Source of the DNA: Acidimicrobiia bacterium
GTDB lineage: Bacteria; Actinomycetota; Acidimicrobiia; Acidimicrobiales; JANYDT01
DNA length: 32,880 bases
Direction: 5' to 3'
Assembly: GCA_025359845.1 (NCBI GenBank)
Contig: JANYDT010000035.1
Coordinates: 1 to 32,880, forward strand
In this document: piece by piece, positions 28,787 to 31,705 of the stretch
How the letters are laid out: each line of letters opens with the position of its first letter
Position numbering within the stretch: position 1 is the first letter of the stretch
Notes under the pieces: generated by a model
What the model was told of the DNA's origin: nothing
Seen by the model: the letters and a program-made list of their open reading frames with translations, nothing else
Database searches by the model: none
Translations under genes and position numbers: made by a program

Positions 28787-30472
28787 CTACTTGACCGGCC
28801 AGGTGCCTACAGCCCGTTCGGCCATCTGCTGTTGACGGAGGTCGATGGATTCCGCTGTCCATTCCTCCTCACGCCCGACCTGCTCCGTAAGCACGTAGGG
28901 AGAAGCTGCGAGCGTTAGGCGTTTCGTGGCGAAGGTGCCGGACTTGAGGTCCGAATTTTGCTTGCGCGTTAGCAGCACCATATTCCCGAGACGATTTACG
29001 TAATCCGCCGCCGACTCATCGTCGAATGTGGGCCAGTCGCCGCCCGGAACTCGGGGGAGTACATGTTCCAGTGTGATCTTCTCCGGATCGCTCTCGGGGA
29101 TAAACCACGGGTCATGCGCGCCCTGTGCATTCGACTCAAGCGACCGTAGATAATACCTCGCGAACTTGGGACTCGATACCCGGGCCGTCGTAAAGGCCGC
29201 CTTAAACCGGGCGTCGGAAGGGGTAATGCCGTTTAGCGCTTCGCGGAGTTCTTTGTACGCGGTAATGCTGCCGTCGTACACGGCCTTGGCCGCAGCCGAT
29301 AGTGGAAGCTCGACCGAAGCGCTGCGGGTCGTGCTGGCGACAATGAGCCTTACGCCAAGCGATACGAGAAATTCGAGTGATGCAACCGCTTCCTTCGACT
29401 TCATTTGACGACTTATTACAACTATTAGGGGTCGCATGGGTTTGAGCTGGAAGAGGTTGAGCACTTCGATCGCCCTCCGGGCGGACACTGGGAAGTGGCT
29501 CCATATTTCGTGCTCGGGGTTGAATGTAGCAACGTACGTATTCGCCATTTCGTGGAGTCTGGCGGTTAACGTCACGACGAGTTGCGGGGTTTTGGCAAGC
29601 GCCTGGACTTTGCCAAAGACGTCAACATCGCGAATATGGCCTTCCATTATTATTAGCGCGTGGCGGAGGAAGAGCATCAGCGGCAGGTCGTCACTGTCGA
29701 GCGAATCCAGGATTGAGCGCATTTGCGACCATCTGCTCTGTGCCTCGTCCTTACGGTCTCTGGCGGTCTTGTACAGGTAGTTCTTCACGAGATCAGCCTG
29801 AGAAACCTTAAGCCCGCGATCATTCAAGGTCTCAAACATTCGGAAGGCGTTCGCGTCATCCGGAACCCGCATCAACACTGCTACCGCCTCGTGCTCGATG
29901 AAATCGATCCATTGATTCAGTACGTCGCCCTGATCCTTCGCCGCATATGGATTAACGATGGCCTCTACTCGCTTTAAGGCCAACCGGTAAGCCGCGATCA
30001 AATATTTGTGTGATTCCCGCTTATATGTGATGTTGGGGTCGGGTTCGCCGGACTTCAACAGAAGCGCGAAGAGGTCGTTGTCATCGACGTTGAGTTGCAG
30101 TTTGGGCACTTCCTCGCGCGTCTTGCGATCAATGTCGGCGAGGTAGTTGGTAACGGATGCAACTAGCGCGTCCTCATCGAGTCGTCGTAGGCGCCCTCGT
30201 ATTGCGGCGAGTAAGAGCGCTGTAGTCGCGAGACGCTGCTGTCCGTCCACGATTTCCAGAGCGTTTTTGCCCTTCGGGATCGTTACCAGACTGCCGAGAA
30301 AATGCTCGTCTCCGGTGGAGATGGCTCGCGAGAAGTCGTCGTACAGTTGAGTTACGTTCTCGTCTTCCCAAGCGTAGTCCCGCTGGTCAAGCGGTACCTT
30401 TACGAACCACTGTTTCAGAATTGAACCGAGTCCGCGTGCGTCGAGTTCGATTTTCGGCGTCGACTCGGCCAT
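28787..30472 (-). CDS. GmrSD-like DUF262/DUF1524 (HNH) nuclease, probable phage defence
   Basis: A 561-aa protein of the GmrSD (type IV restriction) superfamily. The DUF262 half has VPLDQRDYAWEDENVTQLYDDF at residues 26-47 and the ParB-like nucleotide-binding motif IVDGQQRLATTALLL at 74-88. The middle is helical. The C-terminal DUF1524 half has the HNH pattern: LEHVLPR with His470, then RLGNMVLL and Asn506. GmrSD proteins cut phage DNA with modified bases, using NTP hydrolysis. Both half-domains look intact, so the gene is probably active. ATG 30472 overlaps the stop of a ribbon-helix-helix gene as TGATG. The DNA is more AT-rich than its neighbours, with runs such as ttattacaactattag, consistent with transfer. 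Its target is unknown. Confidence 0.88.
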   Translation of the reverse strand: MAESTPKIELDARGLGSILKQWFVKVPLDQRDYAWEDENVTQLYDDFSRAISTGDEHFLGSLVTIPKGKNALEIVDGQQRLATTALLLAAIRGRLRRLDEDALVASVTNYLADIDRKTREEVPKLQLNVDDNDLFALLLKSGEPDPNITYKRESHKYLIAAYRLALKRVEAIVNPYAAKDQGDVLNQWIDFIEHEAVAVLMRVPDDANAFRMFETLNDRGLKVSQADLVKNYLYKTARDRKDEAQSRWSQMRSILDSLDSDDLPLMLFLRHALIIMEGHIRDVDVFGKVQALAKTPQLVVTLTARLHEMANTYVATFNPEHEIWSHFPVSARRAIEVLNLFQLKPMRPLIVVISRQMKSKEAVASLEFLVSLGVRLIVASTTRSASVELPLSAAAKAVYDGSITAYKELREALNGITPSDARFKAAFTTARVSSPKFARYYLRSLESNAQGAHDPWFIPESDPEKITLEHVLPRVPGGDWPTFDDESAADYVNRLGNMVLLTRKQNSDLKSGTFATKRLTLAASPYVLTEQVGREEEWTAESIDLRQQQMAERAVGTWPVK

Positions 30473-30669
30473 CAGATGTTGGTCCGCAGCGGCAGCAGTT
30501 CGACGAAGGGGGCGCTCTGGCCGGTCGTCTCTAGGTCACGGATAGCAGCCTGGCGGAGACGCTCCCTAACCCATGACGACAACGGGATGCCAGCGAGATC
30601 GGCCGAAGCCTGGAACCCCAGCTTCTCGGCGTCCGTCACCCTAATTTGCAGTACCTGGCCCTTTGTCAT
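30472..30669 (-). CDS. Ribbon-helix-helix DNA-binding protein, probable regulator of the GmrSD-like gene
   Basis: A 65-aa protein. The first ten residues form a strand (GQVLQIRVT), followed by helix A (DAEKLGFQASADLAG) and helix B (PLSSWVRERLRQAAIRDLE). This is the MetJ/Arc-type fold used by autorepressors and antitoxins. The tail (residues 50-65) is short and Pro/Leu-containing. Start ATG 30669 lies six bases after a -10 box, so the mRNA is probably leaderless. Its stop overlaps the start of the downstream nuclease gene, so the two are co-translated. It likely represses the operon through the repeats upstream. An antitoxin-like role toward the nuclease is possible but not shown. Confidence 0.75.
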   Translation of the reverse strand: MTKGQVLQIRVTDAEKLGFQASADLAGIPLSSWVRERLRQAAIRDLETTGQSAPFVELLPLRTNI

Positions 30670-30675
30670 GAGAGC

Positions 30676-30681
30676 AGTGTA
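30676..30681 (-). promoter_or_regulatory. -10 box of a probable leaderless promoter for the RHH-GmrSD operon
   Basis: The minus strand reads TACACT, separated by six bases from ATG 30669. This is the spacing of leaderless actinobacterial mRNAs, whose transcription begins at the A of the start codon. There is no Shine-Dalgarno sequence. The box overlaps one copy of a 9-bp repeat. Confidence 0.55.
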
Positions 30682-30728
30682 CCGCGACACCCGGGCGGAT
30701 CACCCAGCAAAGCTACATCTGTACCGCG
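30678..30728. promoter_or_regulatory. Paired CGCGGTACA repeats, candidate operator
   Basis: The nonamer tgtaccgcg (CGCGGTACA on the transcribed strand) occurs at 30678-30686 and 30720-30728, in the same orientation and 42 bp apart, close to four helical turns. The proximal copy overlaps the -10 box, so a bound ribbon-helix-helix protein would block transcription. Confidence 0.45.
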
Positions 30729-30772
30729 CAAAGTAGGAAGTGACGGGCGATTGACCTTGATTGTGGTGCAAT

Positions 30773-31282
30773 ATGCAGTACACTGGAGCATTGAGCAACA
30801 TCCTCAGCATCGAGCGTCGGGCGCAGGTCGTTTCCTGCCTGGTCGAGGGCATGAGCACCCGCGCTACGGTGCGCGTGACGGGCGTAGCGAAGAACACCAT
30901 CGTGAAGCTGCTCGCCGAACTGGGCGCAGCGTGCGCCGAGTACCAGGACGCAGCGCTCGCGAACCTCGATTCCAAGGTCATCGAGTGCGACGAGATCTGG
31001 AGCTTCTGCTACGCGAAGCAGAGAACGTTCCCGGGCAGTACAAGGGCACCCCCGGCTACGGCGACGTGTGGACGTGGGTCGCCATTGACGTCGATGCCAA
31101 GCTGGTCCCGTCGTGGCTGGCAGGTAAGCGCACGAAAGCCGACGCCTACACGTTCCTGTCCGACCTCAGAACCGCTTGAAGGGCCGTTTGCAGCTCACCA
31201 CGGACGGCCATCGCCCTACCTGACCATCATCGAGCCGCTGTTCGATGCCGACTCCATCGACTTCGCCATGCTGCACAAGTAA
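30773..31282 (+). pseudogene. IS1-family-type transposase, frameshifted and truncated
   Basis: The first frame reads ILSIERRAQVVSCLVEGMSTRATVRVTGVAKNTIVKLLAELGAAC and IECDEIWSF, the helix-turn-helix and first catalytic part of IS1-type transposases. Near 31020 the frame shifts by one base, and the next frame continues VPGQYKGTPGYGDVWTWVAIDVDAKLVPSWLAG. A second break lies near 31175 (LKGRLQLTTDGH continues in a third frame) and another near 31222. The last part (SIDFAMLHK) ends at TAA 31280-31282 before the usual C-terminal region. With at least three breaks the gene cannot give a working enzyme. No terminal inverted repeats are recognisable. Confidence 0.85.
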
Positions 31283-31305
31283 CCGACCGGCGGCCCGACT
31301 GTGGG

Positions 31306-31580
31306 TATTCGTGCCATCGCTGATCGGGTCTGACTCCTGGCCGGCGTAACCGAACGTGCTCGTCACCGCGCCCTCAACCCGCTGATACACCCGGTCGAGA
31401 CCGTCATATGTGAAGGCGGCCGCTCCGGCCGTCGTCATTCGGCCCAACCCGTCGAAGGCATAGCTCGTCGTCACCCCGGCCTTGGTGCTTGACGCCAACG
31501 TACCTCGCGGGCCGGTCGGCCAAGTCGTAGGCGTAGGTGTAGGTGTAGGTGTGTTGCCCCGTGGCCGTTGCCCGACATGA
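31306..31580 (-). pseudogene. RHS/YD-repeat protein fragment
   Basis: On the minus strand one frame reads TATGQHTYTYTYAYDLADRPA, and after a break near 31500 another reads SYAFDGLGRMTTAG, FTYDGLDRVYQRV and FGYAGQESDPISDG. These are YD repeats (Y-D-x-x-G/D-R) of RHS-type proteins, large secreted or toxin-carrying shells. The fragment has a frameshift and is cut off at both ends. Its downstream end adjoins the transposase remnant at about 31283-31305, so an insertion or rearrangement probably destroyed it. Nothing remains of a toxin domain. Confidence 0.75.
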
Positions 31581-31705
31581 CCGAACCCTTCCGCACACCC
31601 TCCCCTCGGAACGCCTGCCCCGCCTTCATACCACACCCACACGCGCCCCGCCCGGCGAAACCTGGATGCTCACCGGCGGGCTGCCGCGGTGGAAAACCGC
31701 GCCGC

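Follow-up and report, generated by a model that had tools for sequence, protein, structure and literature searches.

The window analysed here, a stretch of 32,880 nucleotides from an Acidimicrobiia bacterium, carries two tightly coupled genes on its minus strand. The first encodes a ribbon-helix-helix (RHH) DNA-binding protein of 65 amino acids counted from its ATG (30472–30669), recognized from its ORF, a family HMM, and AlphaFold and Foldseek. The second encodes a GmrSD/DndI-type nuclease of 561 amino acids with DUF262 and DUF1524/HNH domains (28787–30472), recognized by Pfam, PADLOC, and structural matching. The RHH stop and the nuclease start share one base within TGATG (30470–30474), and the ORF coordinates thus bear out the coupling proposed in a sequence-only reading of this DNA. 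Six bases 5′ of the RHH ATG (30667–30669) lies a putative −10 box, TACACT (30676–30681, minus strand), a leaderless spacing also found in two related loci, L018 and L020. That reading had located this box correctly, together with two minus-strand copies of CGCGGTACA, one over the −10 box (30678–30686) and one farther upstream (30720–30728). Rfam gave no match in the region around the pair.

Divergent from the RHH gene, on the plus strand, is the relic of an IS1-family transposase gene (30791–31283), which that reading had missed. It retains the N-terminal ∼163 of ∼289 residues, is interrupted by several frameshifts, and has lost its C terminus. Its TTG start (30791–30793) is preceded at six bases by a putative −10 box of its own, TACACT (30779–30784), as in L018. 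Searching the window at up to seven mismatches revealed no terminal inverted repeat (TIR), and no target-site duplication (TSD) was found there either; a transposon origin is therefore argued from the transposase relic and the relatives described below. Because the transposase is broken and no TIR is recognizable, we regard the window copy as a relic that has lost its mobility while both of its cargo genes remain intact. This cargo is GC-poor (53%–60%) relative to its flanks (64%–68%). An RHS-repeat-like fragment (31166–31642; a weak match, below the cut-off) overlaps and then follows the transposase relic and may reflect a rearrangement where the transposon end was lost.

The window nuclease matches GmrSD_N (PF03235, 5e-30) and GmrSD_C (PF07510, 1e-22), both above cut-off, and its best PADLOC model is the candidate system HEC-06 (3e-147). 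The columns that are invariant in 25 relatives, including the DGQQR motif, H470, N497, and N506, are all kept, which justifies at the sequence level the earlier description of the nuclease as intact. With its DUF262 and DUF1524 domains and its DGQQR and HNH motifs, the protein belongs to the GmrSD/SspE/DndI family and is predicted to be an NTP-dependent HNH enzyme. Its structure model is closest to DndI of Salmonella (PDB 9JFL, TM 0.75), then to SspE and BrxU, the BrxU match (7p9k) being distant (TM 0.32). DndI is likewise a single DUF262–DUF1524 chain of comparable size with DGQQR and HNH motifs; however, its partner genes are dndBCDE, whereas the window nuclease is partnered by an RHH gene. 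Both DndI and SspE sense phosphorothioates through a tyrosine (PMC11662687). At this position, the Tyr of P-x-Y-Q-R, the window nuclease has Asp (P-L-D-Q-R) and 18 of 25 relatives have Asn. No DndC was found in the window's genome, and only one of 15 RHH-bearing genomes has a clear DndC. With the sensing Tyr replaced and DndC absent, we judge phosphorothioate dependence of the window nuclease unlikely. Calling the protein a GmrSD type IV restriction enzyme, as the sequence-only reading did, is thus only loosely right: the Pfam domains are the same and are fused as in GmrSD/BrxU-type enzymes, but the closest structure is DndI and the sensing residue has changed. The parts of a context survey available to us (PMC4619093) describe no RHH partner for GmrSD/BrxU-type enzymes. 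A diverged second GmrSD-type gene with one in-frame TAG lies elsewhere in the window's genome (G000:C125:537-2282, L012).

In Pfam the RHH protein gives only a NikA-like match that is weak and below cut-off (4e-5). Its fold is nonetheless clear from an AlphaFold model (pLDDT 86) and from Foldseek matches to AtaR, TacA, NikA, CopG, and Arc, whose E-values are individually weak, as expected for 65 residues. Across 19 RHH sequences, W33, R35, R39, L46, and F55 are invariant, P54 is present in 16, and the C-terminal tail past helix 2 is conserved. This tail, with its invariant F55, and the GmrSD-type nuclease partner distinguish the protein from RHH antitoxins, CopG, and NikA, with which it shares the fold. 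Since the conservation extends through the tail (L46 and F55), it suggests protein contact beyond DNA binding, and the RHH protein may also restrain the nuclease directly.

The pairing recurs widely. When GTDB genomes were scanned with a two-row alignment, 80 loci emerged (a single-sequence query had given no matches), and the RHH–nuclease pair was found in 18 loci, the RHH gene overlapping the nuclease gene or sitting a few bases before it. Recurrence was one of the points on which the sequence-only reading had staked its proposal, and here it held up. The RHH family HMM is positive directly before the nuclease in the window and in L018, L019, L020, L022, L024, L025, L026, L032, L033, L035, L039, L045, L046, and L048; the RHH gene is degraded in L038 and partial in L064. 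On viral contigs, RHH occurs in L147 and, with a truncated nuclease, in L142. Within the 80 loci, RHH HMM matches fall only beside the nuclease and nowhere else. The pair is present in at least nine phyla: Actinomycetota, Acidobacteriota, Thermomicrobiota, Chloroflexota, Pseudomonadota, Bipolaricaulota, Bacteroidota, Thermodesulfobacteriota, and Nitrospirota. In the nuclease tree, RHH is confined to one clade of 30 rows (SH-aLRT 100), 17 of which carry it. Tree neighbors come from different phyla, a pattern that fits horizontal transfer, and the window nuclease sits on a long branch (0.95 vs. about 0.35 for its neighbors). Among 247 Acidobacteriota genomes, full-length RHH occurred only at the known locus, the remaining matches being generic RHH domains. 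Annotated plasmids and phages yielded no RHH, and the DUF262 relatives on plasmids are distant.

Two other viral contigs (L143 4001–4153 and L144 4001–4171) encode an RHH protein with the conserved tail and have no nuclease gene nearby; these are possibly counter-defense decoys or captured repressors. In a sister clade (L047, L051, L053, and L055), a ∼325-amino-acid protein with a DpnII-like restriction domain, shown by Pfam for L047 and L051, precedes the nuclease in place of RHH.

The regions upstream of the pairs have a common motif, a TGTANTGCA-NNN-TGCANTACA palindrome accompanied by TGCANTACA half-sites over the start-proximal −10 box of the RHH gene. In the window, the full candidate operator, TGTGGTGCA-ATA-TGCAGTACA, lies at 30762–30782 with one mismatch to consensus, and its right arm overlaps the TACACT-N6-TTG of the divergent transposase. 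The repeats that had been taken to flank the promoter are real, but that description was incomplete: both CGCGGTACA copies are degraded half-sites, two mismatches from TGCANTACA, of a larger palindrome that sits just outside the segment considered earlier.

Several counts tie this palindrome to the pair. With at most two mismatches, it stands upstream of 11 of 17 RHH pairs (each matched by 0 of 500 dinucleotide shuffles) and of none of the 12 nuclease genes from the same clade that lack RHH (Fisher 4e-4). Because these loci also supplied the motif, this enrichment is partly circular, a concern that applies less to the genome-wide counts. Its expected number in the window is 0.03, and the copy there is the only one in the genome. 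At one mismatch or fewer, seven of 17 genomes contain exactly one copy each, always at the RHH–nuclease locus, and a reversed control pattern has zero matches in the same 17 genomes. Among 299 Pseudomonadota genomes, a sample centered on the Caulobacter RHH locus, there are three exact matches: that locus and two (L105 and L106) within homologous glycosyltransferase genes, which we dropped as coding coincidences. The consensus operator is missing in six of the 17 RHH loci.

The arrangement around the operator is also shared. In the window and in L018, each of the two divergent genes has TACA(C/A)T-N6-start, which in L018 reads TACAAT-N6-ATG twice, and in L020 and L022 the palindrome adjoins decayed transposase starts. 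L046 has no TGCA operator; by eye, a different AT-rich motif is common to its RHH and transposase promoters. We considered whether the palindrome might be the transposase's own site and discarded this, since the promoters of other IS1 transposases differ and the palindrome is kept where no transposase was detected (L026 and L032). The conserved, locus-specific palindrome in the RHH promoter is instead a candidate operator on which the RHH protein would act. We take this TGCA-type palindromic operator to resemble that of CopG, which we offer as a lead.

The relatives reveal what kind of element surrounds the pair. In L017/L018, perfect 19-bp TIRs (GGTAGTGGGTCAGTTTGAA) enclose transposase, RHH, and nuclease genes within 3.86 kb, flanked by an 8-bp TSD (GACCTCGG). 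L046 has perfect 17-bp TIRs and an 8-bp TSD (ATTCAGGC); both elements are of the IS1 family. An unguided inverted-repeat search found perfect 25-bp TIRs with an 8-bp TSD (ATTTTTAA) in L039, whose transposase is IS1595-like, and perfect inverted repeats of 32 bp in L048 and 26 bp in L035, whose transposases are IS1595-like as confirmed by Pfam. In L017 and L046, a search of the stretch between transposase and RHH found no TIRs that would belong to the transposase on its own. Thus, in L018, L046, and L039, transposase and passengers lie together within TIRs bordered by a target duplication, as in a transporter IS (tIS; PMC9330008); the window copy, with its broken transposase and no recognizable TIRs, does not have this structure. 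Like other tIS elements of the IS1 and IS1595 families, those described here combine one DDE transposase, short TIRs, 8-bp duplications, and passenger genes. They differ in having an RHH–nuclease operon as passenger and the passenger's candidate operator on the transposase promoter. The founding IS1595 paper reportedly deals with passenger genes. Beside the transposon in L017 (9619–9668), additional GACCTCGG copies bracket a pair of abutted TIR-like ends (about 30 bp), an arrangement resembling a second insertion into this target that has lost its interior. tRNA-like sequences occur within IS1-family elements at L017 6271–6344 and L108 1321–1397.

Of 19 loci, 10 have an IS1/IS1595 transposase gene no more than about 0.3 kb upstream of RHH, usually in divergent orientation, as opposed to none of 66 DUF262 loci without RHH (Fisher 3e-8). 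Nine of the 10 pass a single E-value cut-off applied to all loci, and L020 is counted for a transposase remnant that has a TIR. In L033 and L035 the transposase is codirectional with RHH, so shared repression need not hold there. The nine loci without a transposase would suit a chromosomal defense operon beside which IS elements landed by chance. We consider such independent insertion very improbable, given the absence of these transposases from nuclease loci without RHH, the fact that in the window and L018 the transposase promoter bears the RHH candidate operator, and the TIRs and 8-bp duplications that in L018, L046, and L039 bound transposase, RHH, and nuclease as a single unit. It was on these repeats and duplications that we rejected the IS as an unrelated neighbor.

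The same proximity, and an operator common to both genes in several loci, might mean that the nuclease works on behalf of the transposon, for instance securing its retention by cutting rival or empty sites, with RHH coordinating transposase and nuclease. This, too, is improbable: the pair and its operator are kept where the transposase is broken or absent (the window, L022, L026, and L032), and the same TIR occurs on IS1 elements with unrelated defense-type cargo, so the nuclease is dispensable for transposition.

Those other elements came from IS1-family transposases sampled from relatives of a Thermomicrobiales genome, which with four earlier loci make 24 copies. Sixteen of the 24 lie in elements of about 2–4.6 kb with GGTAGTG-type terminal repeats; of these elements, 11 have perfect 8-bp duplications and several others are offset by one base. 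Among their varied cargo (L208–L226, L186, L187, and L145) are seven DNA methyltransferases, in some cases as fusions with Mrr-type nuclease domains, along with a HEC-04-like ATPase accompanied by a membrane protein, an RmrA-like protein, a PIN domain, and a Panacea domain. This small sample, confined to the IS1 family, suggests that GGTAGTG-type elements commonly carry defense or toxin–antitoxin genes. A small basic protein with the motif RLGGxKGGKARAxKLTxEER..IAxxAAxxRW recurs inside IS1 elements (L209, L212, L214, L216, L221, L186, and L187).

Cargo of this kind bears on a further reading, in which the pair is a toxin–antitoxin or addiction module: the RHH tail would bind and inhibit the nuclease, and the pair would stabilize the transposon or region and not restrict phages. 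The RHH structures nearest to the window protein are indeed antitoxins (AtaR, TacA, and Rv0298), its tail is conserved more than DNA binding requires, and PIN, Panacea, and other toxin–antitoxin-like genes ride on related IS1-family elements. However, 13 of 30 same-clade nucleases have no detected RHH, which is therefore not strictly required, and the known members of the nuclease family are defense nucleases. On balance we hold an addiction role to be rather unlikely.

It is probable, in our assessment, that the window locus is the immobilized remnant of an IS1-family transporter IS carrying an RHH-repressed nuclease, and that the same RHH protein silenced the transposase. The direct foundations of this account are the gene coupling, the conserved operator, the TIRs and target duplications of the relatives, and the loss of the window transposase; upon them we infer the following steps. 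The RHH protein would bind the palindrome and the half-sites over start-proximal −10 boxes and, once bound, would repress the operon that encodes it, along with the divergent transposase if there is one. Restriction of incoming DNA is the probable role of the nuclease, which would be toxic if overproduced, a proposal that would explain its tight coupling to RHH. Indeed, DndI is a nickase that nicks host DNA when protection is lacking and damages it when unrestrained (PMC11662687), and tight control is therefore required for such a nuclease. The sequence-only reading had pictured a self-contained, autoregulated unit. Half-sites over the −10 box in many loci are as autoregulation predicts, but the unit is cargo of IS1/IS1595 transposons and so not simply self-contained.

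More tentatively, and with the balance leaning somewhat against it, single-ORF tIS elements of the IS1 and IS1595 families may be general vehicles for defense modules. In the RHH–GmrSD branch, the passenger repressor would govern both transposase and nuclease, so that one event, such as loss of RHH on entry into a new cell or infection, would free mobility and restriction together. Release triggered by infection is a guess.

The nuclease family, RHH regulators, and transporter ISs were already known; their combination and the shared operator appear to be new. The full-text literature that we searched, mostly without subscription papers, held no description of an RHH partner of GmrSD-type nucleases or of IS1/IS1595 elements carrying such cargo. 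No PADLOC model matches the RHH gene, and the literature found for HEC-06 does not note a transposon link. Nucleases of the GmrSD family occur widely, and little is known of how they are controlled; the system described here, compact, found in nine phyla, and equipped with a defined candidate operator, makes their control testable. The placement of the pair on small transposons, under one likely switch with the transposase, suggests a way to spread a dangerous nuclease that is kept quiet. More broadly, defense cargo on very small transposons would be a simple route for moving defense genes without phages, plasmids, or large islands.
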